Shown: piece after piece, positions 7,277 to 51,628 of the stretch | Numbering within the stretch: position 1 is the stretch's first letter | Layout of the letters: each line of letters begins with the position of its first letter | DNA from: Streptomyces cadmiisoli | GTDB lineage: Bacteria > Actinomycetota > Actinomycetes > Streptomycetales > Streptomycetaceae | Reading direction: 5' to 3' | Length of the DNA stretch: 64,000 nucleotides | Assembly: GCF_003261055.1 (NCBI RefSeq) | Contig: NZ_CP030073.1 | Span: 9,052,001 to 9,116,000, forward strand | Program-made: the position numbers and the translations under genes | Notes under the pieces: generated by a model | What the model saw: the letters and a program-made list of their open reading frames with translations, nothing else | Database searches by the model: none | Told to the model about the DNA's origin: nothing

Positions 7277-7288
7277 TTGACCGTTCAA
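7277..7288 (-). promoter_or_regulatory. TTGA-N4-TCAAG element upstream of I36-like gene
   Basis: TTGACCGTTCAA inside the perfect-arm palindrome GCTTGA-N4-TCAAGC (7275-7290). Read toward the I36-like gene it is TTGAACGGTCAAG. It belongs to a set of six such sites in the window, all in non-coding DNA. Confidence 0.55.
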
Positions 7289-7479
7289 GCATATGAAATT
7301 GCGAATGCTGCGTCAAGTGCCGGTTCGTCCGGCCCCTGCTACCGGCCACGTATCCTTTCGTCACTCGTGGAACCGTCCGATGAAGAGCAGCCTCCCCGTT
7401 CTACTTCGGATGGCTGTGCATCAGGGTGAAGCGGTGGTTTCGGTTGCTTGTTGCTGGGCTGGGCCTGGCAGGGGCCCGA

Positions 7480-7665
7480 CGACGCGGGTCGGGTTCTCCA
7501 GGGTTCCTCGGGTGGTGGGTGGCCATAGACGGGATCCACCCGGACCATGCGGCCGACGATCGAGGTCGACGCCGCCATCGAGACGGGGACGCCCTCCGGG
7601 GCCTGCCGGAACGTGAAGTGCATGTCGCCGAAACGCGAGTCTTCCCGGGAGCCGACGTCGATCAA
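7480..7665 (-). pseudogene. possible GNAT acetyltransferase relic
   Basis: The minus frame reads FRQAPEGVPVSMAASTSIVG then RMVRVDPVYGHPPPEEP, which resembles the core strand pair of GNAT N-acetyltransferases just before the acetyl-CoA loop (ARVGPVYTPPExRGRG). The acetyl-CoA-binding part itself is not readable and no full frame exists. Low confidence. Confidence 0.3.
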
Positions 7666-7944
7666 GTCGATGGAGCGCTGCTCCCCGATGTCGACGTTGA
7701 GAACTCACGGCACCAGTGCGCGATTTGGTCACGGTCCTTGCCCGTGAGACGGCCCTGGCCTTCCGGTCGCGGCTGCGGCGGGGTGAGCGCGCCGAGATGA
7801 GCGTATCCACCGGGGGTGGCCGAGGGCGTGGCAGGGACCTGCCATCGCGCAGGTGTGGGATGGCAGTGCGGTGACGCCTGCGGGCTAGGTGTTTTCCTCA
7901 GTTGCGGAAAAACTCTCTGGAGCCTTACACTCCACGTTGTACGA

Positions 7945-8262
7945 ACGAGTAGGAGCGGCGAATGGGCCGTGCATCGCCGCTCAATGCGGCCTGCCTGCCA
8001 GGCGACGAGCCGGTGCCCACGGTCCAGCTGGCCGCTGCTCATGACCTGTCACCCAGCCACCTGAACAAGGTGCTCCAATGCCTGGTCAGGGCTGGCATCC
8101 TGCAGTCCATGTCGGGACTGCGAGGCGCTTGCCGCTTGGCTCGCCCCCTGGCGACGATTTCGATGCTGGCCGTAGTGACGGCGGTCGAAGGCGATCAGTC
8201 GGTCTACCACTGTGCGGAGATCCGCCAGCATGGCACCGTCGGGGAACAGTTTCCGAAAGCAG
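7945..8262 (+). pseudogene. Rrf2-family regulator relic
   Basis: The readable core is TVQLAAAHDLSPSHLNKVLQ, CLVRAGILQSMSGLRGACRL, ARPLATISMLAVVTAVEGDQ and SVYHCAEIRQHG. This matches the winged helix and following segment of Rrf2 regulators (LAAAHxLSPxYLxKVLQxLVRAGILxSxxGxxGGYxLARP). The first helix (GEWAVH) is in another frame, so the 5' end is broken, and the C-terminus runs into unrelated sequence. It is open to the start of the next gene only by chance. Confidence 0.65.
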
Positions 8263-8354
8263 CTTCTCCAGGCCCGCCCGGTGAAGACTGCAAACATTTG
8301 CCGCGCACTCGGCCCCACCTGAGTAAACGCACCTTGCACGAGAACTGGTACCAA

Positions 8355-9554
8355 ATGTTGAGATGGCACCGCTGGCGGCTCATTATGGCCGCGTTCCTGG
8401 CGGTCATAGGAGTAAGCGTCACCTCGGTGGCGTCAGCATCGGCAGCCCCTTCACCTTCGCGAGATGGGGTCCCGATTACGATGAAGGGGACTGCGAGCCC
8501 CAGCGCGGACAAGAAGGCCAAGGTCTCGAGCGCGGCGAAGAAAGCCAAGGGCACGAGCACGAAGAAGAAGGCCAAGGACTCCAGCGCGAAGAAGGCCGGA
8601 GGCCCCGGCACAGCAGCTCAGTGGCCGTGGGAAAGGCCCCAGGGTCCGAACAACATCATCTCGAGCGACAGTGCCGCCGCCGCCACCGTGGCGGGGTCGA
8701 ACAACCAGCTGAGGGTTTGGCGAGGGGAGGGTGGTGGGGCTACTCCCCTCTACTACTCCTTCGAAGGCGAAGACGCCCGAGAAATACCAGGTGGCGCCCG
8801 TACGGCCAACGCCCCGGCTGTGGCGTGGTTCGATGACTACATGTACGTCTTCCACCGGGGGACTGACAACCGCGTCTACTACATGCGTTACGATCCGGAC
8901 TTCGGTGGCGACTGGCACGACGGCCAGGGATGGACCGCCCTTCCTCAGAGTGTGCTGACCCTGGCGACACCGTCAGTGACGTCGTACCACAGCCACACGA
9001 ATCTGATGGTGACCTGGCGCGGCACGGACAGCCGCATGTACCTGGGACGACTGGACCAGAACCTTGGATGGCACGGCATGGGCGAAGTCGGCGGCAACGG
9101 CCTGACTCCGAGTTCCCCCGCGATCGCCGAAATGGGAACCATAGTAACCGCTCCGGAAAACGCCGGAGACTGGCTGCTGGTGGCGCACCGTGGCAACGAC
9201 AACCACGTTTACCTCCAGGTCGGTATCTGGTTCCGAGGCCAGGATCACATCACATGGAATCCGAATTGGCACCGGTTGGGTGACTGGCGAACGAATTCCA
9301 GGCCGAGCATCGCCACTACTGGCACCACCAATCAGTATGGGCAGGTCAGTATTCGAACGCTGGACGACACCCTCGCCTGGATAGATCTTATCCAGACCGA
9401 AGGTGGCGAGGGCCTGTCCCTTGGTGACTGGATCAGGGACCAGGCTAACGCGGACCTCAGCTCTGCCCCCACCCTCTACCGGTTGGGATTCACCATCGTC
9501 GCTGTCGGCATGGATTGGTGGAACCACAGGCTGCAGGAGAAGCGAATCTGGTAA
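8355..9554 (+). CDS. secreted beta-propeller (PLL-like) protein
   Basis: 399 residues from the ATG at 8355. Signal peptide: RWHRWRLIMAAFLAVIGVSV, TSVASASAAP. Residues about 40-85 are a lysine/alanine/serine tract of repeated KKAK units, a flexible basic linker. From about residue 90 at least five blades of about 55-60 residues repeat the pattern xPSVxxxxxxLxVxxRGTDxxxYxxxxD: VFHRGTDNRVYYMRYD, VTWRGTDSRMYLGRLD, VAHRGNDNHVYLQVG and weaker copies to the end. This blade pattern is that of PLL/fucose-lectin-like propellers, which bind glycans or surfaces. No catalytic motif is seen. An open frame continues upstream into the Rrf2 relic, but the signal peptide fixes the start. Function is not known; sugar binding is inference. 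Confidence 0.78.
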   Translation: MLRWHRWRLIMAAFLAVIGVSVTSVASASAAPSPSRDGVPITMKGTASPSADKKAKVSSAAKKAKGTSTKKKAKDSSAKKAGGPGTAAQWPWERPQGPNNIISSDSAAAATVAGSNNQLRVWRGEGGGATPLYYSFEGEDAREIPGGARTANAPAVAWFDDYMYVFHRGTDNRVYYMRYDPDFGGDWHDGQGWTALPQSVLTLATPSVTSYHSHTNLMVTWRGTDSRMYLGRLDQNLGWHGMGEVGGNGLTPSSPAIAEMGTIVTAPENAGDWLLVAHRGNDNHVYLQVGIWFRGQDHITWNPNWHRLGDWRTNSRPSIATTGTTNQYGQVSIRTLDDTLAWIDLIQTEGGEGLSLGDWIRDQANADLSSAPTLYRLGFTIVAVGMDWWNHRLQEKRIW

Positions 9555-10565
9555 TTTTTCAGTCCGTGCTGGCTCTTTCGTCAGGAGTCTGAAAGAGCAC
9601 AACCAGCCCGACTGCATGTGAAGCCTCAGGTGGACGCATCTCGAAAATCCCCGTCCACCGAGGTTTCATTTGTGTGCACACCTGTCGAGGAACCGTCCGG
9701 CTCGTCATTCTCGAGCGTGATGCAGACCAGCGGGGTGGCTTTCGGGGCTGCCGGCTCAGAACCCAAACCCGGCAGGCGCTGGGCTCAGGCACTTCCCACG
9801 AGCCGGTCACGGTAGGGCTTGTGAGCGGGACGAACTTCAAGCGCTCTTCCCGGCTCCTCGGTCGTGCCGACGAGTAGATCCTCCGCCGTTGGCCCACAGC
9901 CGGACGCACGCGTGGCTTCTGCGTCGACAAGCTCCGCGTCGAAGATCGGATGGTTCGTTGCCGCCCGCGCCAGGCGACGTCGCAAGCCGTACAGACAGCC
10001 ACCTTCGGCGGGCCCGATCCGGTACGGAAGTAGGGCCGTCGCGACTTTTGAAGCTTCTTGAGGGTGTGCGGGTGCCGATAAGGTGGTCTGCGAGCGACGA
10101 AAGGTGGCGGTCGCCGCCAAAGATGCCGTGGACCATCAGGCCACGTCAATGCCATGCGGTTCTCCGATCTTGCAACTGCAGCCGCACCCAGCTGCCCAGG
10201 CTCACCATGGTCCGCAGCGTCAAACGTCTTGTTCGACGGCCGCGGTGCACCGCCCGTCGTCAGGTCGGTCTGCCCCACTGCACGGCCCGGCACGTGGGCC
10301 GGTGATCCGGAGGTGTCGGATGAGGACCTGTTCAGGCAAGATGGTGTCCGGCCCGCCTTCTCGGCTTCCGCAGGGCTCGAGTCTGCATGATCGGCGAGAG
10401 GCGTGGTCCCCGTTTCGGCATCGCCGCCGGCCCGCCATCTCATCGGGCGATGCGAGTGCGCATCAGTCCTGATAAAGGGCCCGGCAGGATGAGCCGGGCG
10501 GGTCGGCCGCACAGAGGACGTGCGGACGTCTTGGCGTCGAGTCTGATCGGGAATCCGGGGAGTCT
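9555..10565. other. about 1 kb without a supportable gene
   Basis: Several long open frames exist on both strands but all have arginine- or proline-rich, out-of-phase compositions and overlap one another. I read no conserved motif. It looks like decayed coding DNA before the TetR gene. Confidence 0.5.
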
Positions 10566-10631
10566 GTCATTTCTAAGGAAGCGCAGTCGCGTGATCGCGG
10601 AACCGCCAAGGACAGGATCCTTGACGCAGCC

Positions 10632-11126
10632 GTGGTCGCCTTCGCCGAGTCCGGATACGACGGTGTAGGACTGCGGGAGATCGCGGTGGCGGCCGGCGTG
10701 AACTCCCGCTTGATCAGTCACTACTTCGGTTCGAAGGAAGGCTTGTTCCGCGCTGTGCTTGACCGGGTCAGCGACGGTCCGTTCCTGCTGACCCCTGAGG
10801 GGGCGCAGGGGTTCATGACCGTCGATCCGCCCTTCGACGACCTTGCGGGCCTGCTGACGATGCTCCGCTCCACATCAAGCCGACAGGCCATGGCCATCAT
10901 CCGCGGCGAGGTCGCAAACCGCTACGAGGCCGACCTGGCCGCAAGCCTGACGGGCCCGGACGCCCGCGGACGGGCAGCCCTGATCAACGCCATCACCGTC
11001 GGCATCCGCCTGATGCGCGAAGTCGTGGGCAACGAGGCGCTGAAAGGCGAAGACGCAGCAGCGATCGTTCCGTACCTGGACGCCATTGCACGGATCCTGT
11101 ACGACGCCCCAGCCGATAAGCACTGA
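10632..11126 (+). CDS. TetR/AcrR-family transcriptional regulator
   Basis: 164 residues from the GTG at 10632. The helix-turn-helix is clear: VGLREIAVAAGVNSRLISHY-FGSKEGLFRAVLDR, followed by an all-helical ligand-binding domain. The homologous reading continues upstream without a stop (SKEAQSRDRGTAKDRILDAA), so the true start is probably at about 10566, where a GGGGAG sequence (10557-10562) precedes a GTC-ATT pair rather than a normal start codon. Either a rare ATT start is used or a GTG has mutated. The full-length protein would be about 186 residues, a normal TetR length. A terminator follows. No divergent target gene is obvious because the upstream kilobase is decayed. Confidence 0.8.
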   Translation: MVAFAESGYDGVGLREIAVAAGVNSRLISHYFGSKEGLFRAVLDRVSDGPFLLTPEGAQGFMTVDPPFDDLAGLLTMLRSTSSRQAMAIIRGEVANRYEADLAASLTGPDARGRAALINAITVGIRLMREVVGNEALKGEDAAAIVPYLDAIARILYDAPADKH

Positions 11127-11232
11127 GCGTTGTCAGCGCTGCTGTTGCAGGCGGGGTCGACGATTCCCGAGGTCTGGGCTGCATCAGGAATCGCGTAGCA
11201 AGGGTGATCGGGCCAGCTGTTTCGTAACGCCA

Positions 11233-11267
11233 CGGAGCCCCGGCGGGCAGCATTTCCGGGGGCTCCG
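11233..11267 (+). terminator. terminator after TetR gene
   Basis: 9-bp perfect stem (11233-11241 with 11259-11267), about 105 bp beyond the TetR stop. Confidence 0.55.
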
Positions 11268-11409
11268 CGGCGTATGGAGTTGCGCTGTTTCAACGATGCC
11301 ACCGCTTCCGTGTCACGCGGCGGTCCGGGGGCTACCAGCGCATGTCGAGGGTGTTGAGGTCGTTACTGTCCAGGACCCGGGGGAACCTTAATGTGATGAC
11401 CGTGGCGTC

Positions 11410-11965
11410 TTGGCCGCGATCGTCTATGTCGCTACCGCAGGCTGCACTTGGCGTCAGCTACCGCCGGTCGTCGGCGCCTCCCGGCAGACGGTGCACCGGC
11501 GATTCAACGGACTGGTCGCGAGCCCGGGTCTGGGCGAAGTTGCACCGCGTGGTGCTGGACCGGCTCGGCGCGGCTGGCGTGCTGGACTGGTCTCGCTGCG
11601 CGATGGACTCGGTCATTGTCTGCGCGGTCAAAAGAGGGCTCTCGACCGGACGGAGTCCGACCGATCGAGCAAAGTTGGGTTCGAGATTTACGTCATCTGC
11701 GACCTCAGCGGGTTGCCCATTTTGGTCGGCGTCTCCGGCGCCAACCATCTCGACAGCCAAGCTCTTATCCCTCAGATGCGCGGGATCCCTCCGATCCGTT
11801 CCCGCTACGGGCCCCGGCGTCGCCGACCGGGCAAGCTCCACGCGGATAAGGGTTACGACTTTGACCACCTGCGAGGATGGTTGCGCCGTCGGCAGATTGT
11901 GCCGCGCATTGCCGGCCGCGGCATCGAATCGTCCAGCCGCTTGAGACGGCATCGCCTGGCTGCAC
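11410..11965 (+). pseudogene. IS5-family transposase relic with two frameshifts
   Basis: N-terminal text AAIVYVATAGCTWRQLPPVV, then after a frame change WAKLHRVVLDRLGAAGVLDW and SRCAMDSVIVCAVKRG, then back to the first frame with KVGFEIYVICDLSGLPILVG, VSGANHLDSQALIPQMRGIP and GKLHADKGYDFDHLRGWLRR. The catalytic aspartates (AMDSV, ADKGYD) are readable but the chain is broken by compensating frameshifts and lost after SSRLRRHR, so the last catalytic Glu region is missing. Confidence 0.75.
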
Positions 11966-12364
11966 GTTCGCTGCCACTCTGGAGACGGCCCGCACCGCCC
12001 CCCGTGCACGGTGGCGGAGGGGAGATCTCTCCCCCCCCGGCGCACCGCGCACCATCACCGTGCGTAATGAGGATGGAGGGTGGCGAACTTGCCGTTCCGA
12101 GCCCCGTGGGCCGGGGTAGGCACGGTTCGCAAATGCGTGTCCTGCCGGACGCGAACGGACTGCCCTTACGGGCCGGGCTCTCCGCGGCTGACACCCATGA
12201 AAGTTTGCTCTGAAGCCGATGCTGTCCCATTTCCACATGGGACACGAATCCAGCCCCGGCGGCGTCCCCGTGCCGCCCAGGACGAACAGCAGTCGTGGGA
12301 AGAACGGGTAGCGATGGGCGGCGGACCTCCAGGACCACAGCGGCACCAGGCCCCCGAGAGGGGG
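11966..12364. other. gene-free stretch with a near-palindromic G/C run
   Basis: No supportable gene. Around 12017-12036 a GGGGAGATCTCTCCCC-like near-palindrome runs into a row of eight or more C. This may be where the IS5 relic was truncated. Confidence 0.4.
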
Positions 12365-13015
12365 TCAGTAGCCGACGGTGAAGCGCTCACCGGCGTGCTG
12401 GGGGTTTTCGATTTCGTCGATGAGGGCGACGGCGTAGTCCTCAGTGGAGATGCGGCTGTTGCCGTGGTCGTCGATGATCAGGTCGTCCAGGTCGGTGCGG
12501 TAGGTGCCGGTGCGTTCGCCTGGCTCGATGGATGCCGGGGGGCTGCAGTTCGTCCACGGCACATCGGTGACCGTGCGGTAGAGGTCCAGGGCGTCCCCGT
12601 GGGCGTGCATGACCTGGAGCAGGTCCTCGGGCAGGCCTTCCGCGTCCCAGACCAGGTCGCCGGTCGGGGTGCGCAGTGAGCCGGCACCTCCGACCGCGAT
12701 GAGCAGTGGTGGGTCGTCCCCCGCTGCGCGGAGTCCAGCGATCAGCGATTCTGCACTGGGCCTGATGGTGGCGACGTGGCCTGGACCGTCACCGCCACCG
12801 ACCGCGCTGACCACGACGTCCTGGCCGTGGGCGACGGAGGCGACGGAGGCGGGGTCCAGGACGTCGCCGGTGACGACCGTCAGGTATGTCCCGGACTTGG
12901 TGTACTTCGACGGGTCACGCACGACAGCGGTGACGTGATGGCCGCGGTTGAGCGCCTCGTCCACGAGGCGGGTGCCAATAGTTCCGGTCGCTCCGAATAC
13001 GGCGATTTTGGACAC
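12365..13015 (-). CDS. NAD(P)-binding Rossmann protein (NmrA/atypical SDR type)
   Basis: 216 residues. The start is the GTG at 13015 (SKIAVFGATGTIGTRLVDEA), five nucleotides after a GGGAGAG ribosome site. The N-terminal GATGTIG is the GxxGxxG dinucleotide-binding loop of atypical SDR/NmrA-like proteins. Later segments VVTGDVLDPASVASVAHGQD, VVVSAVGGG and VGGAGSLRTPTG fit NAD(P)H-binding single-domain relatives such as YwnB/SCO-type reductases and biliverdin reductase B-like proteins. There is no Tyr-x-x-x-Lys pair of classical SDRs. It is a single-gene unit on this strand. Substrate unknown. Confidence 0.85.
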   Translation of the reverse strand: MSKIAVFGATGTIGTRLVDEALNRGHHVTAVVRDPSKYTKSGTYLTVVTGDVLDPASVASVAHGQDVVVSAVGGGDGPGHVATIRPSAESLIAGLRAAGDDPPLLIAVGGAGSLRTPTGDLVWDAEGLPEDLLQVMHAHGDALDLYRTVTDVPWTNCSPPASIEPGERTGTYRTDLDDLIIDDHGNSRISTEDYAVALIDEIENPQHAGERFTVGY

Positions 13016-14333: not shown

Positions 14334-14831
14334 TCAGATTTGTTCGACGTGGGCCTTCATGGCTTGGGCAATGGCATCGGTGAACCGGGCGATGACATCG
14401 AGCTCGCTGGCGTTGAACTGATCGAGTATCGCGTTGGTGGACTCGTCCAGTGGGCCGAAGAAGGCCAGGGCAGTGCGCATGCCTTCTTCTTTGTAGCGCA
14501 GCCGTACCTTGCGGTGGTCGTCCGCGTCCTCGCGGCTTCGGCGTACGTGACCGGAGGCTTCGAGGCGGTCGATGAGGTAGCTCGTCCCGGCAGACGACAG
14601 GCGCAGGTGACCTTGCAGCTCGCCGGGAGTCAGCGGAGTGCTGGCACCCTCAGCCGACATGATCGCCACTAGGGCGAACAGGTCTACTGGGCGCAGCTGG
14701 TGCTGGGAGGCGAAAGCGTGTGTCAGGCGGGTTGAGTCCGTCCCGTAGCGGCGCAGCGCGTCGATGATCCGCCATTGGCGCTGGTCGCTTGGGTCTTCAC
14801 CGGGATAAAAGCCGTCGGTTGTCACGGGCAC
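14334..14831 (-). CDS. MarR-family repressor, divergent from MMPL exporter
   Basis: 165 residues starting at the GTG at 14831 (another GTG lies two codons in). The winged helix reads LFALVAIMSAEGASTPLTPG, ELQGHLRLSSAGTSYLIDRL, EASGHVRRSREDADDHRKVR, with the DxRxxR wing typical of MarR. It is divergent from the MMPL gene, with only 26 bp between start codons. In such pairs the MarR protein usually represses the exporter and itself, and an exporter substrate releases it. That role is inference from layout. Confidence 0.87.
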   Translation of the reverse strand: MPVTTDGFYPGEDPSDQRQWRIIDALRRYGTDSTRLTHAFASQHQLRPVDLFALVAIMSAEGASTPLTPGELQGHLRLSSAGTSYLIDRLEASGHVRRSREDADDHRKVRLRYKEEGMRTALAFFGPLDESTNAILDQFNASELDVIARFTDAIAQAMKAHVEQI

Positions 14832-26804: not shown

Positions 26805-27662
26805 TTACACTCCGGCCAGCCGTGCCGTCAGCAGTTCCGGCATGCGGTCCAGGACGATGCCGAAGTGGTCCCGGTAGGCTTCCAGGACGGTTTCCTGCGG
26901 CAGTTCGACCTCGCTGCTGTGCCCGCCGTCGGTGATCACCAGGCGCTGTCCGCTGATCGTGACCCGGCCGTTCTCGGTGGGCAGTGAGCAGACCAGGTTC
27001 TGGGTGAAGTGCGCCTGCGGAGCGTTGCTGTGCCACCAGCAGGCTGTCGTGAAGTCGGAGAGCGCCCGCGGGCGGAGTTCGACGCGGTACTGCAACACGC
27101 CGTCTCGATAGACGTCCAGGTCACCGTCGGGTCCGTCCTCGATGCGATAGACACCGCCGGGTCCTCGCTGCTCCGCCCGGTCGTCCAGGCGGAGCGGGAA
27201 CTCGATCTGCCGCCCGAACCCCACGTCCACGAGATAGGGCTCGCCCTCCGCATCCACGCGTAGGGCGAGGTGGTCGAAGGGCGGGCCGAACCCGTCGCCC
27301 AGGAAGACCCGCGCGGACAGCAGGCTGACCCGGTAGCCCAGAGTGGTCAGCAGCGCGGCGAAGGCACCGTTCGACTCGTAGCAGATGCCGCCGCGCCGCT
27401 CCCGCGCGATCTTGTCGACGAGCGATCGGGCATCGAGTGCGATCTGCTCCCCGGCATGGATGCCCAGGTTCTCGAACGGCACGGTACGCACGTGCCTGAA
27501 CTGCAGGTCACGCAGATGCGCCGCGTCCGGCCGGCCGGGACGCGCGGCACCGATGCGCTCGAGGTAGCTCGTGACCCGGGCCTCGTCGATGTGGAGGTGG
27601 CTCGGCTGGTCCCCACTCTCCTTGTCCGGCACGGTTTCGGTGGCGGTTCGGTGTTCGCTCAT
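26805..27662 (-). CDS. nat: arylamine N-acetyltransferase
   Basis: 285 residues, typical NAT length. The catalytic triad is complete: Cys94 in RRGGICYESNGA, His131 in PPFDHLALRV and Asp146 in EPYLVDVGFG. NATs transfer acetyl (or other acyl) groups from CoA to aromatic amines and hydrazines; RifF-type relatives close macrolactams in ansamycin pathways. The ATG at 27662 follows AAGGAC at nine nucleotides. The stop TAA coincides with the TTA target of the IS5 element. A TTGA-N4-TCAAG element lies 156 bp upstream. It follows an FAD monooxygenase on the same strand, but the 305-bp gap with that element suggests its own promoter. Detoxification of aromatic amines or tailoring of a metabolite are both possible. 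Confidence 0.9.
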   Translation of the reverse strand: MSEHRTATETVPDKESGDQPSHLHIDEARVTSYLERIGAARPGRPDAAHLRDLQFRHVRTVPFENLGIHAGEQIALDARSLVDKIARERRGGICYESNGAFAALLTTLGYRVSLLSARVFLGDGFGPPFDHLALRVDAEGEPYLVDVGFGRQIEFPLRLDDRAEQRGPGGVYRIEDGPDGDLDVYRDGVLQYRVELRPRALSDFTTACWWHSNAPQAHFTQNLVCSLPTENGRVTISGQRLVITDGGHSSEVELPQETVLEAYRDHFGIVLDRMPELLTARLAGV

Positions 27663-27818: not shown

Positions 27819-27830
27819 TTGACCAGTCAA
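27819..27830 (-). promoter_or_regulatory. TTGA-N4-TCAAG element upstream of nat
   Basis: TTGACCAGTCAA; arms TTGAC/GTCAA are perfect. Toward nat it reads TTGACTGGTCAAGTAAATGG, very similar in phase to the site before the monooxygenase (TTGATCCGTCAAGTAATG). Confidence 0.6.
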
Positions 27831-27966: not shown

Positions 27967-29469
27967 CTACGCGGTGTGCTCCGGCCCGGTCACCCCCGCC
28001 ACGGTGAGCGCCGTGCTCGCCGCGGCCGTCAGACGCTGGTCGTCCGTCTCCTCGCAGGCCCAGGCCACATGGCCGTCGGGTCGCACCAGCGCGGCGCGTA
28101 CGCCGCTCCAGTCCGCCCGGTCCTCGGTGAGCGCGCCGGTGTACGGCGTGACCATCCGCTCGCCAGGCACCGCACCATCCGTGGCCTTCACCACGAGCCC
28201 GTCCGTGAGATCGAGCAGGACGTGACGGCCCGGTCGCAGCTGTGTCAATAGGCTGGTGCCCCCACGGAGTCGGAGGTCAGGTGTCCTGCGGCCCACGAGC
28301 GGATGGGCGTCGGGGGAGTCCGGCGGGTAGGCCACCGACAGCGCCGAGACAGCTTCGGCCAGGTACCTCGAGAATTCGGGCTGCCGCTCGATGGCGTTGC
28401 CCAGGAAGGAACGCAGGCTCCTGCCCTGGGGTGTCCAGGCCGTCATCAGGACGCTCTGGGCGTCGGTCGCCTCCAGGAGTTCCGCGCCCACGGGACGGCG
28501 CTCCTGTTCGTAGCTGTCCAGAAGTCCTGCCGGCGCCCAGCCCCGCAGCGTGGCGGCCAGTTTCCAGCCTAGGTTCCACGCGTCCTGCAGTCCGAGGTTC
28601 AGGCCCACGCCGCCGGCCGGGAGGTGCCGGTGGGCGGCGTCCCCGACGAGCAGGACACGGCCCGAGCGGTAGTGGTCCGCCAGTTTCGCGCCGTTGCCGG
28701 TGCGCGACACCCACTGCGGATCGCGCAGGCCGAAGTCGGTGCCGGCCACGGCAGCCGTCTTGGCGCGGAGTTCCTCGACCGTGTAGCCGGCCCATTCGGC
28801 GCTACGGTCCTCGAGGTCGAGACCGCCCACGCGGTACACGCCGGGTGACATCGGCACGATCATCAAGGTGCCTCTGGCGTTGACATGGGAGAAGGGGATC
28901 GTGTTCGGGGGTTCGTCGAGAGCGACGTCGGCCAGCCATCCGTACCAGGTGGAGTCGGTTCCGGAGAGCCCGATACCCGCGCTCTCACGGACCGCGCTGC
29001 GGGTGCCGTCGCAGCCGACCAGGTAGTCGGCTTCGAGCGCGTATCCGCCGTCGGGTCCCTGGACCTGGGCGAGGACCGAGTGCGGCTTGTCCGTGAGCCC
29101 GGTGAAGGTGTGCCCGCGGCGGATGTCCGCACCCAGCTGGAGCGCGTACTCCTCCAGCAACTCCTCGACCTTGGGCTGCGGCAGCATCAGGGTGTACGGG
29201 AAGGGGGTGTCCAGCCTGCTGAAGTCCATGCGCTGATCGAGGAGACCGAAGTGGCCGCTGGGGATCCGCTTGCCCTGCCGGACGAAGCGGTCCGCTATGC
29301 CACGCGACGCCCAGACCTCCATGGTGCGGGGGTGGATGGTGAATCCCTTGCTGTGCGGAGAGCGTTCGGGGAGCTGTTCGATGACGGTGACGTCCACTCC
29401 CCGCAGTCGCAGTTCAGCAGCCGTCCACAGTCCGGAAGGGCCACCTCCGACAACGATCACGCTACCCAC
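27967..29469 (-). CDS. FAD-dependent monooxygenase (PHBH/rifampicin-monooxygenase type)
   Basis: 500 residues from a GTG at 29469, five nucleotides after GAGGA. Motifs: GSVIVVGGGPSGLWTAAELR (GGGPSG at 8-13), YLVGCDGTRSAVRESAGIGL (DG motif) and RVLLVGDAAHRHLPAGGVGL (GD motif near residue 276), then a thioredoxin-like C-terminal domain. The class A flavin hydroxylases of this length include rifampicin monooxygenases and polyketide hydroxylases. It is divergent from a VOC protein and upstream of nat. A TTGA-N4-TCAAG element is 98 bp before the start. Co-occurrence with an acetyltransferase suggests aromatic or amine tailoring/detoxification; substrate unknown. Confidence 0.88.
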   Translation of the reverse strand: MGSVIVVGGGPSGLWTAAELRLRGVDVTVIEQLPERSPHSKGFTIHPRTMEVWASRGIADRFVRQGKRIPSGHFGLLDQRMDFSRLDTPFPYTLMLPQPKVEELLEEYALQLGADIRRGHTFTGLTDKPHSVLAQVQGPDGGYALEADYLVGCDGTRSAVRESAGIGLSGTDSTWYGWLADVALDEPPNTIPFSHVNARGTLMIVPMSPGVYRVGGLDLEDRSAEWAGYTVEELRAKTAAVAGTDFGLRDPQWVSRTGNGAKLADHYRSGRVLLVGDAAHRHLPAGGVGLNLGLQDAWNLGWKLAATLRGWAPAGLLDSYEQERRPVGAELLEATDAQSVLMTAWTPQGRSLRSFLGNAIERQPEFSRYLAEAVSALSVAYPPDSPDAHPLVGRRTPDLRLRGGTSLLTQLRPGRHVLLDLTDGLVVKATDGAVPGERMVTPYTGALTEDRADWSGVRAALVRPDGHVAWACEETDDQRLTAAASTALTVAGVTGPEHTA

Positions 29470-29567
29470 GGCATCCTCATTCTCCGGTTCGGATCTTCCC
29501 TTGCGGCCGGAAGACAGGGGGCGGTGTGTGCCTCCGAGCGTTCATGCCGCCACCACGCCTACATTAC

Positions 29568-29579
29568 TTGACGGATCAA
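29568..29579 (-). promoter_or_regulatory. TTGA-N4-TCAAG element between monooxygenase and VOC genes
   Basis: TTGACGGATCAA, read toward the monooxygenase as TTGATCCGTCAAGTAATG. It shares the TCAAGTAA extension with the nat site. It could also act on the divergent VOC gene, whose start is 238 bp away. Confidence 0.58.
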
Positions 29580-29817
29580 ATATATGGGGCGGTGGGTCGT
29601 CGCGGGCGCGGGCGGCGTCTCTGCGCCGGCTCGGCCGGTGAAGCGCCAGGCAGTGAAGGCGCGCTCGCTTCGAGCACGAGTCAGCCACCCGTGCCCGTCG
29701 CAGATCCGCCCTGTGTCCCGCCCGCACTCCGTTCCACCGTCGGATACCCCCGTCGGTTTGAGCCCGGGACGCGCACGGTACGGACAGTTCCACCACTCAC
29801 TGCGAGGACTCAACGCC

Positions 29818-30291
29818 ATGGACCTGAAGCTCGAAGTCATTGTGCTGCCCGTCTCCGACACCGACCGGGCCAAAGCCTTCTACGAAGACCTGGGCTGGCG
29901 CTTGGACCTGGACACGGGCCCCAGTGACGACTTCCGAGGTGTGCACTTCACGCCCCCGGGCTCCGGGTGCTCGATCATGTTCGGTGAGGGAATGACCGCT
30001 GCCGCCCCGGGCTCGGTGCAGGGCCTGTACCTCATCGTCTCCGATATCGAGGCGGCCCAGAGGGAGCTGAGGGAGCGGGGTATCGACGTGAGCGACGTGT
30101 TCCACGACGCGGGAGGGGTACTGTTCCACGGCCATGAGGACGGAGACGTGACCCACCGCCTGCCGGGCCAGGAGCGCTTGGCGGGCCGACACCCGCAGGG
30201 CACCAGTTACTCGTCCTTTGCCACCTTCGCGGACCCGGACGGAAACGGCTGGGTCCTCCAGGAGATCACGGAGCGGTTTCCCGGCCGCTGA
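29818..30291 (+). CDS. VOC-family (glyoxalase/bleomycin-resistance fold) protein
   Basis: 157 residues from the ATG at 29818 (GAGGA about eleven nucleotides upstream). Text LKLEVIVLPVSDTDRAKAFY, EDLGWRLDLDTGPSDDFRGV, HFTPPGSGCSIMFGEG, then YLIVSDIEAAQRELRERGID and SSFATFADPDGNGWVLQEIT is the paired beta-alpha-beta-beta-beta fold of the vicinal oxygen chelate family. The closing FxDPDGNGWxLQE contains the usual metal-ligand Glu. Enzymes and antibiotic-binding proteins share the fold; the role here is open. It is divergent from the monooxygenase. A longer reading upstream has arginine/proline-rich sequence and was not used. Confidence 0.87.
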   Translation: MDLKLEVIVLPVSDTDRAKAFYEDLGWRLDLDTGPSDDFRGVHFTPPGSGCSIMFGEGMTAAAPGSVQGLYLIVSDIEAAQRELRERGIDVSDVFHDAGGVLFHGHEDGDVTHRLPGQERLAGRHPQGTSYSSFATFADPDGNGWVLQEITERFPGR

Positions 30292-35785: not shown

Positions 35786-35797
35786 TTGACTCGTCAA
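35786..35797 (+). promoter_or_regulatory. TTGA-N4-TCAAG element upstream of lipoprotein relic and PIG-L gene
   Basis: TTGACTCGTCAAG with perfect TTGAC/GTCAA arms. It lies at the same distance from a conserved CACGACG-containing leader as the element at 51617, ahead of lipoprotein copy 2, so the promoter region was duplicated with the gene. Confidence 0.6.
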
Positions 35798-35799
35798 GG

Positions 35800-36012
35800 T
35801 TCCGGTACGGTGGGATTCACGACGAAGGCGGCCTCCGTGCACTGATGTGGGCGTGCCGCGGTCGGCTCTGATGCTCGGCTCGAACGGATAACGGCGGTCT
35901 GCGATGGCGCTCGACCCGAAGCGTCTCCGCACGGTTCTCGGACGGCGCCGCTCGGCCTCGCTGGTGCCGGATGCCTGATCGCGATGGCGGTGTCCGCCTG
36001 CCCCTCGCCACG
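35800..36012 (+). pseudogene. 5' relic of duplicated-domain lipoprotein, copy 3
   Basis: The leader (35815-35903) and first codons align with those of copy 2 at 51724: MALDPKRLRTVLGRRRSA against MAMSNDPMRPRTVSRPRRSP. An internal deletion then joins to the signal-peptide region (LVP...LIAMAVSACPSP against MVPTALIAVALSTCTSPQ), frame-shifted, after which similarity stops about 100 bp before the PIG-L gene. Only the promoter, the N-terminus and the lipobox region remain. The surviving promoter may now serve the PIG-L gene. Confidence 0.6.
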
Positions 36013-36119
36013 GGTCGGCGGTCCTCGCCCCACGCCCCGCCGACACCGGCCGCCCCAAGATCGGGGTACGCGCACCGCGCACCCGGACCAAGACGTATTT
36101 CTGCAGGAGGACTGTTTCA

Positions 36120-36953
36120 ATGACTGGCCGGCCCTTGACGCTCATGGCGGTACACGCGCACCCCGATGACGAGGCCACCGGAACCGGAGGGGTTCTCGCG
36201 CGGTACGCGGCGGAGGGTATCCGTACGGTTCTCGTGACGTGTACCGACGGCCGGTGCGGTGACGGACCAGGGGGTGTGAAACCGGGCGATCCCGGACACG
36301 ATCCGGCGGCGGTCGCCTTGATGCGCCGGCACGAACTCAAGGCGAGCTGCGACGTCCTGAAGGTCAGCGATCTGGAGATGCTGGACTATGCCGACTCCGG
36401 AATGACGGGCTGGCCGAGCAACGACGCCCCCGGATCCTTCTGGCAGACCCCCGTGCGGGAAGGCGCGGCCCGACTCGCGGAACTCATGCGGCACTACCGA
36501 CCTGATGTCGTCGTCACCTACGACGAGAACGGCTTCTACGGGCACCCCGACCACATCCAGGCCCACCGCATCACGATGGCGGCGCTGGAGATGACCGCGC
36601 TGGCGCCGAAGGTGTACTGGACCACGATGCCTCGCTCGATCGTGCGGCGGTTCGGCGAGATCATGGGCGATTCTCCTGAGGACATGCCGGAGCTGGATCC
36701 TGCCGAGGCCGCCGCCATGGCCGAGATCGGCCTCCCCGACTCCGAGATCACCACATGGGTGGACACCACCGCGTTCAGTGGTCAGAAGTTCGACGCGTTG
36801 GCCGCGCACGCCAGTCAGGGCGAGAACATCCACTTCCTCAGGATGGGCAAGGAGAACTTCGAAGAGTTGATGGGCACGGAGACCTTCGTCCGTGTCCAGG
36901 ACGCCACCGGCGCCGCCCTGCCCGAGAACGATCTCTTCGCCGGACTGCGCTGA
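36120..36953 (+). CDS. PIG-L family zinc deacetylase (MshB/Mca-like)
   Basis: 277 residues from the ATG at 36120, with AGGAGG at about eight nucleotides. The metal-binding motif HAHPDDE (residues 12-18) and the second motif GHPDHIQAH (about 141-149) are those of the LmbE/PIG-L fold, which removes N-acetyl groups from glucosaminyl compounds or cleaves mycothiol S-conjugates. MshB and Mca act in mycothiol metabolism; many Streptomyces paralogues act in secondary metabolism. It could partner a detoxification route with the monooxygenase and nat, but it is not in their operon. It lies downstream of the TTGA-N4-TCAAG element at 35786 and the lipoprotein relic. Confidence 0.88.
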   Translation: MTGRPLTLMAVHAHPDDEATGTGGVLARYAAEGIRTVLVTCTDGRCGDGPGGVKPGDPGHDPAAVALMRRHELKASCDVLKVSDLEMLDYADSGMTGWPSNDAPGSFWQTPVREGAARLAELMRHYRPDVVVTYDENGFYGHPDHIQAHRITMAALEMTALAPKVYWTTMPRSIVRRFGEIMGDSPEDMPELDPAEAAAMAEIGLPDSEITTWVDTTAFSGQKFDALAAHASQGENIHFLRMGKENFEELMGTETFVRVQDATGAALPENDLFAGLR

Positions 36954-42916: not shown

Positions 42917-42917
42917 C

Positions 42918-46276: not shown

Positions 46277-47260
46277 GAACTTCGCGCCCGGGACTGCCCC
46301 GTCGCATCTCCTGCCTGCTCATGCGAGACCGACGAACCACCGGTGAGAAGGCACGAGTTCAAGATCTGCACGCCCCAAGCGTGCTATCGCCAAGCCGGCC
46401 GCGACGTCGGCAATCCGGGATGGTCCGGCTTGCCCCGGGGGCATCGAGTCGATCTGGCGGAATTCTGATCCGGCGTCGAGGTGGACGCGGTGCCCATGGG
46501 TTTCGTCGAGCCAGCCTTCCCGCTCGGCTTTCATACGGTCGCGGAAGTGGCCGCGGATCCCCACGAGTCGGCTGCGACGGGCCGGTGGGGAGCGCGACCC
46601 GGACCGGGGAGAACATTGATGCGTACGCCATGTGGTGCGGCCTTGGCCGCGGCGATCTCCACGCCCATGGGGAAGGACAGCCGTGCGTCGACAGAGGTGA
46701 TGTCCACGATGGCGACAAGCCGGTGCCTTGCTGTCTCTGCTGGAGCACCGGCTTGCTGTCCGAGCCGGTCACCCGCCCACTCGAATTTCTTCGTCCCTGG
46801 GCCGACGCCCGTCCGAATTTATTCGGCGGATCCCCGGAGTCGCCGAGGATGTCCGATTCGGTGATGCGGCGCGCGGGTGGGCTCCGCTGATGCGTGACGT
46901 CGTCCAGGCCGACTGACCGTCTGGGCGTGACGCTGGCTGGTACTTACGTGTGACCCGTTCCCCTGGGGGATGCGGCAGTCAGCGAGCGGACGCACCGGGG
47001 GTGCGATCAGCCCCGGTCGTCGGTTCGATCAGCACTCCGGAATTCATTCGTCGCTCGTGTTTTTTCGTCCTCCGCGGCAAGTGATGCAATTTTTTCGTCA
47101 GCTGCCGGATCGGTAAGCGTCCACGCGGCGGCGCTGGCAATCTCGCACGTCAGACCGGCTATTGACACCTTCTTCACGCTGGTGTTTCCCTGTGCGCGCC
47201 TCGACCTGTGTTCGATAACGAGCCCGGGGGCGGAGGCTGACAGACGAACGAGAGGAAATC
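46277..47260. other. decayed region before the second protease
   Basis: A minus-strand piece near 46420-46560 (MKAEREGWLDETHGHRVHLD) is weakly similar to linker segments of recombinases. The last 200 bp should hold the protease promoter. No gene can be called. Confidence 0.4.
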
Positions 47261-50200
47261 GTGAATTTCCAGTTCCACAGAACCGCGCGTGACAGTGCGG
47301 TTGTGGCCATCAGCATGCTGCTGGTCGCCGCCACCGCGTCGACATCCGTGGCTCTTTCCGGGCCCATCGGCACGTCGGTATCGCCGACGTCGGTCCCGGC
47401 CGCTCCGGTGGACTCCGCTGCTCCGACCGGCGCCGCACAGCGTTGGATTCCGCTGCTGACCGGCGACCAGGTCGCGGTGAACGCGCAGGGAGAGATCGTC
47501 TCCACACGGCCCGCCAAGGGCCGGGAGGGCATCCCCGTCCTGCGGGAAACCCTCAACGGACACACGTATGTGGTACCGGCCGACGCTCGGCGCCTCATCC
47601 AGAGCGGGCGGCTGGACCGGCGGCTGTTCGACATCACCACCCTCAGCTCCCCCGCCTACGCGCAGCGCCAGGACCTGCGGCTCATCGTGCGGTACGACAC
47701 GGCCCGCCCGGCCGCCAGGACGGCCCTGCGCGCCGGCGCCCGGACGCAGCGCCCTTTGAACAGCATCAACGCGGACGCCCTCACCGCTCCCGCCGGTGAC
47801 GCGCAGCTGTGGTCCACGCTCACCACCGGGCCGGCCGGCGCCGCCAACCGCGGCACCGCGCCGGGCATCGCCTCCGTATGGCTCGACGCCGTCGTCGAGG
47901 TGAGCCTGGACAAGAGCGTGCCGCAGATCGGCGGCCCCCAGGCCTGGAAGGCGGGGCTGGACGGGACCGGATCGCGTATCGCCGTCCTCGACACCGGTAT
48001 CGACGCCACCCATCCCGACCTGGCCGGGCAGGTGGTTGCCGAGCGCAACTTCACCGACTCGCCGGACACGCTCGACCGCTTGGGCCATGGCACCCATGTC
48101 GCGTCCACCGCGGCCGGCACCGGCGCGAAGTCCGGCGGCCTGTACAAGGGTGTGGCGCCGGGCGCAAGGATCCTCAACGCCAAGGTCCTGGGCGACCGGG
48201 GCTTCGGTGCCCACTCCGGCATCATCGCCGGCATGGAGTGGGCGGTGGCCGAGAAGGCCGACGTGGTCAACCTCAGCCTCGGCGGCACGGATACGCCCGG
48301 TGTCGATCCGGTGGAGGAGGCCGTCAACAACCTGTCGGCCGAGACCGGAACACTGTTCGTCATCGCCGCCGGCAACCTCGGCAGTCAGGGTGCCGGCAGC
48401 ATCGGTTCGCCGGGCAGCGCGGACGCCGCCCTGACCGTCGGCGCGGTGGACAAGCAGGACCGCCTCGCCTCCTTCTCCAGCATCGGCCCGCGGGTCGGCG
48501 ACGGCGCGATCAAGCCCGACCTCACGGCGCCCGGTGTGGACATCGGCGCGGCGAGGTCGAAGGACGGCGGACTGTCCGGCGCTCCCGTCGCCGACGGCTA
48601 CTTCGCCCTGAGCGGCACCTCCATGGCCACCCCGCACGTCGCCGGTGCCGCCGCCATTCTCGCGCAGCAGCACCCCGACTGGAGCGGCGAGGACATCAAG
48701 CACGCGCTGACCGCTTCCGCGACGCCGAGTGCCTACACCGTCTTCCAGCAGGGGGCCGGGCGGGCCGACCTGGGCGCGGCGATCCAGCAGTCGGCGGTCA
48801 CCCGGCAGACGTCGCTGCCCTTCGGCACCGCACAATGGCCGCACGCAGACGACGAGCCGATCACCAAGGACCTGACCTACCGCAACCTGGGCAGCACACC
48901 GCTCACCCTGAAGCTGACCACGGAGGTCACCGGGCCTGACGGCGTGCCCGCGCCCGACGGTATGTTCACCGTCGACGAGCAGGTCACCATCGCGCCCGGC
49001 GGCGAGAAGACGGTGAAGGTCACCGCCGACACCCGGATCGGGGACCGAACGGGACTCTTCAGCGGTCGGGTCAAGGCGACCGGCGGCGGGCAGACCGTCC
49101 GTACCCCGCTGGTCGTAGAACTCGAGGCGGAGATGTACACCCTCACGGTCAAGGCTCTCGACCGCGCCGGCAAGCCTGCCGCTCCGTCCTGGTGGGCCGC
49201 GGTGGCGGGCCTGTCCGGCACCGCCGAAGGAGACTCCTCCTACCTCCACGACGGCTCGTCCTCCATGCGGTTGCCCAAGGGCCGGTACTTCCTCAGCGCG
49301 ACGCTCCCGGCGGACCCGGCGGGGTCGTTCTCCCAGGGCGTCGACTTCATCAACCAGCCCCGGCTGGACCTCACACGCGACACCACGGTGACGCTGGACG
49401 GGCGCACCACCAAGCCGTTCGACATCACCGTCCCGAACCGCTCCGCATACCCAGTGGCCGCCGACACGAGTGTCTTCAGCGGGATGACCAACGGGAAGGG
49501 CGCCGGGTTCGGCATCGGAATCACGACCGGGACCACGCCGGACATCGACCCGCACAAGGCGATACGCACCGCGCACCTGGGCCCCAAGGTGAACCTCCAG
49601 GAGCAGCACCTGCGGCAGAACCTCGGGTTCTCGTTCTCCACCGGCGCCAAGGGCCGTGACGAGTACCACCTGCTGTACCTGCACAAGAGCGACACCGTGA
49701 CGACCGGGTTCACCCGCCACACCAAGCGACACGACTTCGCGAACGTCGACGTCACGATGGGGGCAACGGCCAAGAACAAATTCGGTCTCTACACCCCGGG
49801 CATATCAGAGGTAGGTGGTGGCTACGCAACCGCCCACCCCTTGCCGTACACCGGCACCGTTCACCTGCTCGGGCCGAGCAACACCTGGCGTTTCGGGTTC
49901 AGCCAGGCCAACTCCGACGTCCGCCCGGAAGCCAGCTATACCAACACGTCCGCGGACGTGTTCAAACCGGGCCGCACCTACCGCAAGACGTTCAACATGG
50001 GTGTTTTCGGCCCCGACCTGCGACCGGGTTTCGGGATCATCCGTGAAGGCGCGATGGTCAACGGAGCCCTGCCGATGTTCTCGGACAACGCCGGCAACCA
50101 CAACGACAACAACAGTGTGCACAGTGAAACCTCCACGACACTCCACCGCAACGGCGAACTCGTCTACGAGAACACTGCCACGCCCGCGGCCTTCCATTTC

Positions 50201-50632
50201 GTACTGGACGACGAGCGAGCCGACTACCGGCTGACGGCCTCGATCGCTCGCGCGGGGGTGTCCGACGTCTCCACGAGGGTCACGGCGAGCTGGACGTTCT
50301 CCTCGGAGTACACCGCCGAACCGACCCTCATCCCGCTGTCCGTCGTCCGTTTCACGCCCGAACTGTCCCTCGACAACACCGCGCGGGCCGGAGCGAAGAT
50401 GAAGGTGCCGGTGAGCGTGAAGGGTGCCGCGGAGGGACGCAATCTCAAGTCCCTGAGTGTGCGGGTCTCCTATGACCAGGGTGCCCACTGGCACAAGCTG
50501 ACGGTGCGCGACGGTGCCGTCCAGGTCACCAACCCCCGCGCCGGAGGCAGTGTCTCCTTCAAGGCCGTGGCCGTCGACAAGCAGGGCAACTCCGTCGAGC
50601 AGACCATCAACGACGCCTACCTGACGCACTGA
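47261..50632 (+). CDS. subtilisin-type (S8) exoprotease with fused C-terminal module
   Basis: 1123 residues from a GTG at 47261, four to five nucleotides after AGAGGA. Signal peptide SAVVAISMLLVAATASTSVA. Triad: Asp244 (IAVLDTGIDATHPD), His276 (LGHGTHVASTAAG), Ser453 (SGTSMATPHVAGAAA), oxyanion Asn371 (VIAAGNLG). The catalytic domain is followed by long beta-rich regions and ends with the module LIPLSVVRFTPELSLDNTAR, LKSLSVRVSYDQGAHWHKLT, VDKQGNSVEQTINDAYLTH, the same module that exists as a separate lipoprotein at 30427-31020. It is paralogous to the 31050-34715 protease. Secreted endopeptidase, substrate unknown; a strong terminator follows. Confidence 0.93.
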   Translation: MNFQFHRTARDSAVVAISMLLVAATASTSVALSGPIGTSVSPTSVPAAPVDSAAPTGAAQRWIPLLTGDQVAVNAQGEIVSTRPAKGREGIPVLRETLNGHTYVVPADARRLIQSGRLDRRLFDITTLSSPAYAQRQDLRLIVRYDTARPAARTALRAGARTQRPLNSINADALTAPAGDAQLWSTLTTGPAGAANRGTAPGIASVWLDAVVEVSLDKSVPQIGGPQAWKAGLDGTGSRIAVLDTGIDATHPDLAGQVVAERNFTDSPDTLDRLGHGTHVASTAAGTGAKSGGLYKGVAPGARILNAKVLGDRGFGAHSGIIAGMEWAVAEKADVVNLSLGGTDTPGVDPVEEAVNNLSAETGTLFVIAAGNLGSQGAGSIGSPGSADAALTVGAVDKQDRLASFSSIGPRVGDGAIKPDLTAPGVDIGAARSKDGGLSGAPVADGYFALSGTSMATPHVAGAAAILAQQHPDWSGEDIKHALTASATPSAYTVFQQGAGRADLGAAIQQSAVTRQTSLPFGTAQWPHADDEPITKDLTYRNLGSTPLTLKLTTEVTGPDGVPAPDGMFTVDEQVTIAPGGEKTVKVTADTRIGDRTGLFSGRVKATGGGQTVRTPLVVELEAEMYTLTVKALDRAGKPAAPSWWAAVAGLSGTAEGDSSYLHDGSSSMRLPKGRYFLSATLPADPAGSFSQGVDFINQPRLDLTRDTTVTLDGRTTKPFDITVPNRSAYPVAADTSVFSGMTNGKGAGFGIGITTGTTPDIDPHKAIRTAHLGPKVNLQEQHLRQNLGFSFSTGAKGRDEYHLLYLHKSDTVTTGFTRHTKRHDFANVDVTMGATAKNKFGLYTPGISEVGGGYATAHPLPYTGTVHLLGPSNTWRFGFSQANSDVRPEASYTNTSADVFKPGRTYRKTFNMGVFGPDLRPGFGIIREGAMVNGALPMFSDNAGNHNDNNSVHSETSTTLHRNGELVYENTATPAAFHFVLDDERADYRLTASIARAGVSDVSTRVTASWTFSSEYTAEPTLIPLSVVRFTPELSLDNTARAGAKMKVPVSVKGAAEGRNLKSLSVRVSYDQGAHWHKLTVRDGAVQVTNPRAGGSVSFKAVAVDKQGNSVEQTINDAYLTH

Positions 50633-50689
50633 CACCCGTCCCGGGCCGGTAGCTTCAGTCTGGACAAAATCTGCTGGAAAGACCCATAG

Positions 50690-50721
50690 GGTGCCGGCAC
50701 GGTCCGAACCGTGTCGGCACC
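50690..50721 (+). terminator. terminator after second protease
   Basis: 13-bp stem with one mismatch (50690-50702 with 50709-50721), 6-nt loop, 57 bp after the protease stop. Confidence 0.75.
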
Positions 50722-50910
50722 GCCTCATGACCCTAGCTGGTCGACAGAGCGTAAAGTCTGATCTGCTCCGCACCCCGGCGTGCGACTCGGCAGTATCGCT
50801 GTCGGCGCATCGCCGATGCGACCCGCGCGTTCCGGTCGGAGCGCCACCGTGCACGCTGCTTCTGCGGCTCGCCGCGCGGTCCGGGTGTGACCCGACCCAG
50901 TCACCCTTGA

Positions 50911-51325
50911 TCAACTCCAGGGCCGCCTCGATGCCGGACGATGCCTCGACGGGAGGCCGTCCTCACGGTTCCACGCCTTGATCTTGACGAAGGGCTTCCA
51001 CTGTTCGTGGAAGCCCTGGGTCGCAAGGCTTGCATGGACCTCGGGGTTGAGTATCAGCACAAGGACAGGGCTGTGGCCTGGGTCCAGTGGTCCAGCGCCT
51101 GTGAAGGGCAGACCCGAGGTCGGCGTTGCCATGGGAGCCGACGACCAGGCCGATTCCGGTCAGCAGCCCGGTGACTGCGGCGGCCAGAAAGGGATTCAGC
51201 CGGCGAAGACCGCGGTGACAGCGGAGTCCGTGGCCGACCAGACCGCTTCGGAGCCGGCTCCCTGATTCCAGGATGCTCGGGAGCAGCGAAAGAGATCTCG
51301 ATGCATAAGAATTACCTGAGATCAT
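50911..51325 (-). pseudogene. possible decayed small membrane-protein gene
   Basis: One frame contains a hydrophobic helix (NPFLAAAVTGLLTGIGLVVG then SHGNADLGS) and another continues as GAGPLDPGHSPVLVLILNPE, VHASLATQGFHEQWKPFVKI. Joined by one frameshift near 51110 they would make a small membrane protein with an extracellular tail. No family recognised. A TTGA-N4-TCAA palindrome sits at its presumed 5' end. Confidence 0.35.
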
Positions 51326-51336
51326 TGATGCGTCAA
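51325..51336. promoter_or_regulatory. TTGA-N4-TCAA palindrome
   Basis: TTGATGCGTCAA; on the minus strand TTGACGCATCAA, one base different from the site at 29568. It lacks the trailing G seen in the other five. It lies upstream of the decayed membrane-protein gene. Confidence 0.45.
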
Positions 51337-51341
51337 CTTAC

Positions 51342-51616
51342 TTGTGGGTATCGGGGGGCGCCGAGTCGCCCCCGGCCCTTCGGTCGCGGAATAGGTATAT
51401 GAGCGCAAGGGCGCTCACCTGGTGCCGCGGTTCGTGTGTGCCGGCTTTCGCGCCCGCCGGAAAGTCGGGATGCCGGCCGAAATCATCATTTCGGGCCGTC
51501 GCGCAAGCCTGGAGCCGAGGTCGACTCGCCATCGAGCGCATCGTCGGCGCGTCACTGAAGTCATGCCCGGATTGGGGTGAAGGTGAAATTTCAGGTCGAC
51601 ATGGAAGCCCGATTGG
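51342..51616. other. gene-free stretch
   Basis: No supportable gene between the two TTGA-N4-TCAA sites. Confidence 0.4.
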
Positions 51617-51628
51617 TTGAAGCATCAA
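51617..51628 (+). promoter_or_regulatory. TTGA-N4-TCAAG element upstream of lipoprotein copy 2
   Basis: TTGAAGCATCAAG, 95 bp before the ATG at 51724. It aligns with the element at 35786 in front of the copy 3 relic, 19-20 bp ahead of a shared CACGACG leader segment. Confidence 0.6.

Follow-up and report, generated by a model that had tools for sequence, protein, structure and literature searches.

TTGA-N4-TCAA palindromes of Streptomyces cadmiisoli as probable operators of a dispersed regulon of AbsC/SCO3205-type MarR repressors

A 64,000-nucleotide stretch of the Streptomyces cadmiisoli genome (contig NZ_CP030073.1, positions 9,052,001 to 9,116,000; here called the window) contains six TTGA-N4-TCAA palindromes and a seventh, diverged one. 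These palindromes are probably operators of a dispersed regulon controlled by MarR repressors of the AbsC/SCO3205 type, belonging to a clade which we named SLSGMTR after its recognition helix. The sites were enriched between genes, occupied promoter positions and had the consensus TTACTTGACGCGTCAAGTAA, and across genomes they co-occurred with, and were linked to, genes of this clade, the proteins of which are similar to AbsC and SCO3205. Binding, repression, the ligand and the pairing of individual repressor copies with individual sites are what we infer from these patterns. The analysis turns an anonymous motif into a testable switch with a consensus, candidate readers and a target list and, if the interpretation is correct, would supply a ready repressor-operator pair for Streptomyces.

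Palindromes in the window and in the genome

The initial annotation had listed six TTGA-N4-TCAA sites in the window, and all six were present at the positions it gave. When the window was shuffled 100 times with its dinucleotides preserved, the mean was 0.26 sites and no shuffle reached six; the earlier chance estimate of 0.1 per 64 kb was right in kind but slightly low. No site lay inside a gene predicted by codon usage, in agreement with the earlier description of the sites as non-coding, but some mechanical open reading frames (ORFs) overlap them; ORFs 28885-29571 and 29526-29927, for example, overlap the site at 29568.

Scored with a matrix derived from 46 sites in other genomes, the six palindromes reached 19.1 to 28.3 bits. 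Two of them have no assigned strand: TTGACCGTTCAA at 7277..7288 (19.7 bits), which lies between ORFs 6794-7207 (minus strand) and 7293-7616 (plus strand) and is absent from the repeat copies described below, and TTGATGCGTCAA at 51325..51336 (19.8 bits), at the 5' end of ORF 50963-51325 (minus strand). On the minus strand, the putative operator TTGACTGGTCAAG at 27819..27830 (19.4 bits) precedes nat, and TTGATCCGTCAAG(TAATGT) at 29568..29579 precedes a flavin adenine dinucleotide (FAD) monooxygenase gene and has the best score in the window (28.3 bits); both read TCAAGTAA, as had been claimed for this pair. On the plus strand, TTGACTCGTCAAG at 35786..35797 (19.1 bits) stands in a promoter copy ahead of a PIG-L gene, and TTGAAGCATCAAG(TA) at 51617..51628 (23.8 bits) in the homologous promoter of a putative lipoprotein ORF. 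The TCAAG extension ascribed to five of the sites was found on both strands at 7277, on the minus strand at 27819 and 29568 and on the plus strand at 35786 and 51617. A seventh candidate operator, TTGTCGCATCAA at 55047..55058 (plus strand, 16.8 bits), lies 14 bp before an NmrA-like gene and was overlooked by the exact pattern because it has diverged.

Not all of these sites are independent. The promoters at 35786 and 51617 are homologous copies, with 74% DNA identity over 171 bases, and the copy at 35786 (window positions 35786-36230) lacks ~620 bp relative to locus L056, which is why it stands before the PIG-L gene. The source genome comprises 10.24 Mb in two contigs, C1, which carries the window (C1:9052001-9116000), and C2, of 0.97 Mb. 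Four 3-kb segments of the window (26318-53129, with five sites) recur in identical, inverted form at C1:164-191 kb, near the left chromosome end, and five site-bearing promoters are therefore present twice. The comparison of the two ends covered these four segments, the arrangement of which appears to be as in a terminal inverted repeat.

Genome-wide, 40 TTGA-N4-TCAA palindromes were counted, against 8 for the reversed control. Six of the 40 lie in rRNA leaders, five are repeat copies and 29 are others, none of the 29 falling inside genes called by codon usage; these calls came from a purpose-written script, and "intergenic" is approximate in what follows. Statistics were calculated for all of C2, C1:8.40-9.02 Mb and the window, a total of 1,653,901 bases with 499,803 intergenic. 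This sample contained 18 intergenic palindromes, compared to 2.63 expected from half-site counts, and no coding ones. The 18 intergenic matches were obtained with a spacer of 4, and spacers of 0-3 and 5-12 gave 0 to 8. Among the 13 half-sites with the highest ratio, TTGA-N4-TCAA had by far the lowest p value (4.8e-10). The sequence TTGAGTTCTCAAG was present ~160 bp before the 16S rRNA gene in all six rrn leaders found, where this class of palindrome is put to a separate use, and one of the 29 other sites starts 15 bp before the transfer-messenger RNA (tmRNA) gene. The rRNA-leader and tmRNA sites were excluded from the proposed regulon.

A MarR clade as candidate reader

The matrix from other genomes detected seven matches of at least 15 bits in the window, with none in its reverse, and five in the chromosome arm, again with none in reverse. 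As its 46 training sites had been selected by the pattern TTG[AC]N4[TG]CAA, independent evidence comes from the flanks and inner bases only. A reciprocal matrix built from the six window sites was applied to 28 loci with clade MarR genes in other genomes; it reached at least 12 bits at 24 of them, at 1 of the 28 when these loci were reversed and in 10% of 200 chunks taken at random from the S. cadmiisoli arm and C2. The 28 loci were drawn from 42 matches outside S. cadmiisoli and include two overlapping pairs (L303/L321 and L252/L319) that share a site. A chance origin in the AT-richer DNA between genes, with numbers raised by promoter duplication, could draw on the homologous copies at 35786 and 51617 and on the doubling of five sites by the inverted repeat, but its probability is negligible given the 18 intergenic palindromes where 2.63 were expected, the recovery of the window sites by a matrix from other genomes and the matches of the window matrix at clade loci.

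Across 100 relatives, TTGANNNNTCAAGTA had eight matches in the S. cadmiisoli genome itself, seven in genome G027, five in G020 and 0 to 3 in the others. A longer form, TTACTTGACNNGTCAAGTAA, was seen at those places, where its neighbours were luciferase-like monooxygenase, SDR, NmrA, flavin mononucleotide (FMN) reductase, enoyl-CoA hydratase and SnoaL genes. Two S. cadmiisoli MarR genes, at C2:433498 and C1:1060139, are 85% identical, and both lie less than 4 kb from sites (C2:431595/436998 and C1:1059755/1059798); the latter two sites are located past the 3' end of the clade gene and before a glycosyltransferase gene. A search with the C2 copy (E ≤ 1e-38) returned at least 46 matches in at least 22 of 392 genomes of the genus. 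Four of these matches were from S. cadmiisoli, namely, C2:433498-433938 on the 0.97-Mb contig, C1:1060139-1060576, C1:1102142-1102579, with one TGA flagged inside the match, and C1:1103825-1104253. The recognition helix SLSGMTR was nearly constant across the aligned clade loci. A predicted reader encoded at L057:6499-6942 matched PF12802 and PF01047 above cut-off over residues 20-147, and the top two structure matches of its model (mean predicted local distance difference test score, 87.9; alignment of 20 rows, one entered twice) were AbsC and SCO3205.

The presence of the clade was associated with the motif across the genus. With the 392 genomes assigned as clade positive or clade negative among the matches listed, TTGAHNNDTCAAGYA had a mean of 2.68 per genome in the 22 positive genomes versus 0.56 in the 370 negative ones (Mann-Whitney p = 1.1e-6; 4.6e-6 without S. 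cadmiisoli). The strict form CTTGACNNGTCAAG was present in 9 of the 22 positive versus 23 of the 370 negative genomes, and 8 of its 37 places were less than 5 kb from a clade gene. A near-operator, CTTGCGTGAGCAAG, precedes the S. cadmiisoli C2 clade copy, and two TTGA-N4-GCAA variants were found 18 and 46 bp upstream of the clade gene of genome G040. FMN_red genes adjoin clade genes in four scanned loci (L294, L295, L296 and L220), and LLM flavin oxidoreductases accompany them on the plasmids of NBC_01558 and S. tendae 139. The clade gene of Streptomyces clavuligerus sits between tyrosinase and homogentisate dioxygenase genes, and 9 bp before its start is an inverted repeat, TTACTTTC-CGAA-GAAAGTAA (L407:5951-5970), the 8-bp arms of which are 4 apart; the layout is the same and the half-site is changed.

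Readers encoded at the window itself were also considered. The MarR protein encoded at 14334..14831 (minus strand) falls outside the operator-linked clade, matching it at E 0.10 only, and was rejected. The MarR gene cut by the window start (C1:9051962) was likewise rejected, as it was not among the S. cadmiisoli matches listed at E ≤ 1e-15, a search in which 39 of 61 candidates were scored. The scattered MarR-read regulon suggested by the initial annotation was supported by genome-wide, cross-genome and structural computation, but the MarR genes of the window itself probably do not encode its readers.

Predicted targets and the weight of the evidence

Predicted targets in the window are nat (26805..27662, minus strand), which encodes an arylamine N-acetyltransferase (PF00797), and the FAD aromatic monooxygenase gene (27967..29469, minus strand; PF01494 and PF21274), with a divergent glyoxalase/VOC gene (29818..30291, plus strand) as a possible second target of the site at 29568. 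Further candidates are a gene for an MshB/Mca-like PIG-L deacetylase (36120..36953, plus strand), with a match below curated cut-offs, the ORF behind site 51617 (51667..52932, plus strand), which had no Pfam match at 0.01 and had been annotated as a lipoprotein, and a gene for an NmrA-like NAD(P)-binding protein (55073..56050, plus strand), which was scanned from 55217 onward and gave no BLASTP match at 1e-3 with the NmrA target of genome G020. For nat, a promoter TTGATT-18-TAGAAT was predicted, and the site at 27819 lies 1 bp past the -10 element and hence overlaps the predicted transcription start. At the monooxygenase gene, the site is followed immediately by TAATGT and lies beside the -10 element. 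Both positions would fit repression.

A second nat/monooxygenase cassette was found in the S. cadmiisoli genome, with a monooxygenase 80% identical to that of the window and a nat product 76% identical over 186 residues, and the site of the paralogous monooxygenase gene (C1:8599852) has the same 12-bp core as the nat site at 27819. Tandem operator-like palindromes (L055:2631-2678, up to 26.5 bits) lie near this cassette, directly before an acyltransferase gene (PF01553). Neighbours of other sites in this genome included EryCIII-like glycosyltransferase genes (C1 and C2), a multicopper oxidase gene and, ~1 kb off, a PIG-L gene.

The resemblance of the monooxygenase to rifampin monooxygenase raised the alternative that the sites represent the rifamycin-associated element, described in the source passages available as a 19-bp palindrome upstream of such genes. 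A rifampin monooxygenase was the second-best structure match (332 bits), behind a polyketide oxygenase (335 bits), but the window protein, at 411 bits, fell short of the rifampin monooxygenase cut-off (NF033145, 800 bits), and 7 of 26 monooxygenase homologues carry a different palindrome, TTGGTC-N3-GACCAA. On these two grounds this identity was rejected and is most improbable. The TTGGTC-N3-GACCAA palindromes (L159, L161, L163, L164, L166, L167 and L169, in each case upstream of position 1501) have arms with up to 10 of 10 bases paired over 21 bp, and it is possibly these, before Streptomyces monooxygenase homologues, that are the rifamycin-associated element.

For the SLSGMTR repressors, a mechanism can be proposed in which a single dimer would bind the full form, TTACTTGA-N4-TCAAGTAA, with one recognition helix in each of the TTGA half-sites. 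Because the sites lie over the transcription start of nat or beside the -10 element of the monooxygenase gene, a dimer bound there would obstruct RNA polymerase, and a small ligand would free the DNA from it. The predicted targets comprise FAD and luciferase-like monooxygenases, FMN reductases, N-acetyltransferase, NmrA and SDR proteins and glycosyltransferases, and as these are oxidoreductases and group-transfer enzymes, the probable ligand, guessed from gene content, is an aromatic or quinone-like compound or one that is reactive in some other way. There is a hint that the chromosome-end N-acetyltransferase, aromatic monooxygenases, glycosyltransferases and mycothiol-type deacetylase share one chemical signal and that regulators reading that signal also sit on megaplasmids. 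More tentatively, the clade may be spreading on linear megaplasmids and chromosome arms and taking its dispersed operators along. Several MarR paralogues per genome, some of them plasmid-borne, would then share control of the detoxification genes of both replicons, and a repressor from a plasmid would rewire subtelomeric genes of the chromosome. We regard this extension as plausible but short of an even chance.

Several observations weigh against a regulon read by this clade. No near-site was found in the promoter of the S. cadmiisoli copy at C1:1060139. Of the five plasmid loci examined (H1, H4, H5, H6 and H8, from 30 listed), two, on the NBC_01450 and NBC_01483 megaplasmids, lacked an exact core up to 15 kb away from the clade gene, although the NBC_01483 locus (L324) has matrix matches up to 21.7 bits. 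C2 as a whole had 10 matrix matches of at least 15 bits versus 5 in reverse. The motif TTGAHNNDTCAAGYA was absent from four of the 22 clade-positive genomes (G068, G183, G212 and G336) and occurred at least once in 145 of the 370 clade-negative ones, and the strict motif, judged by eye, was sporadic genus-wide, with the reversed control commoner. An exact site was found before none of 26 Streptomyces monooxygenase homologues (up to 57% identity) and none of three from Microbispora (58 to 60% identity), the sole exact match in these scans (L080) lying 2 kb past a 30% homologue; conservation before homologues, assessed for the monooxygenase only, thus failed in the 26 Streptomyces and three Microbispora genes but held for the 80%-identical S. 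cadmiisoli paralogue. Seven of 17 SCO3205 DNA contacts, including Arg72 and Arg74, are changed in the clade, in an ungapped reading of the alignment against the contacts named in the available part of PMC3737563. Finally, 10 of 25 non-clade MarR loci (weaker matches, many from other genera) reached 12 bits with the window matrix, and not all of the 29 genomic sites need belong to the regulon, given the tmRNA site and others near GntR, ArsR-like and HxlR genes.

The 10 of 25 non-clade loci also favour a rival in which core-chromosome orthologues of AbsC, SCO3205 or SCO7727, and not the mobile clade, read the sites. According to the portion of PMC3737563 consulted, SCO3205 binds a TTGA-N4-TCAA operator and the three proteins are related, with matching motifs upstream. 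The same source describes SCO3205 as well represented among the genomes of actinomycetes, yet only a few genomes are rich in sites, and these track the mobile clade; we consider this rival unlikely. Slightly less likely still is a mixed origin, in which unrelated regulators (MarR, HxlR, GntR and ArsR-like) have a short palindrome in common and the sites form no single regulon. This would account for sites beside GntR-UTRA (L054), HTH_5 (L050) and HxlR genes (C2:855240, near the site at 855995), and the tmRNA site and six rRNA-leader sites are indeed something else, but the TTA/TAA flanks of the window sites match those of operators beside clade genes elsewhere. Control by the SLSGMTR clade is the interpretation that we favour.

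As a separate feature, the window contains two group II intron domain matches at 62770-63084 (plus strand; RF02001, 127.6 bits, and RF01998, 52.8 bits).

Comparison with known systems

The nearest solved structures, by both sequence and predicted fold, were those of AbsC (3ZMD) and of SCO3205 bound to DNA (3ZPL). In the accessible text of PMC3737563, the SCO3205 operator O3204 contains TTGA-N4-TCAA within TACTTGAACTCTCAATC, the footprint is CAATACTTGAACTCTCAATCTTTA and the base contacts of the recognition helix are made by Arg72, Ser73 and His77, with Ser73 touching T7, C15 and A16 and His77 touching G8. The Streptomyces coelicolor SCO3205 system resembles the one proposed here in having a MarR dimer, a palindromic operator in which four bases separate TTGA from TCAA, and two operators between divergent genes. 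Of the 17 contacts, seven are identical and three conservative (T62S, S76T and H77R) in the predicted reader at L057:6499-6942, and the base-contacting Ser73 is kept. The two differ in that the clade has 27% identity to SCO3205 over 144 aligned residues, with His77 replaced by Arg and Arg72 and Arg74 lost, and in that the SCO3205 consensus, reported as TTnAAnnnTCAA with five genome matches, contrasts with TTACTTGACGCGTCAAGTAA and more sites for the clade.

AbsC (SCO5405) is tied, in the same partial source, to zinc-dependent antibiotic production, whereas the clade genes adjoin FMN reductases and flavin oxidoreductases, and several are on megaplasmids. MhqR-type quinone-sensing MarR proteins, as far as the material at hand describes them, are repressors with a quinone-linked regulon, and the recurrent NAD(P)H-dependent oxidoreductases next to clade genes give a resemblance of theme only. 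The rifamycin-associated element, in the excerpts available, is likewise a palindrome overlapping promoter elements of actinobacterial drug-modifying enzyme genes, but the monooxygenase homologues carry another palindrome and the window gene misses the rifampin monooxygenase cut-off. Among the open-access papers listed in literature searches, PMC3737563 was the only source in which we recognised the motif as a printed operator. Given this SCO3205 precedent, the operator type is known, and the reader clade, the longer consensus and the gene set are new.

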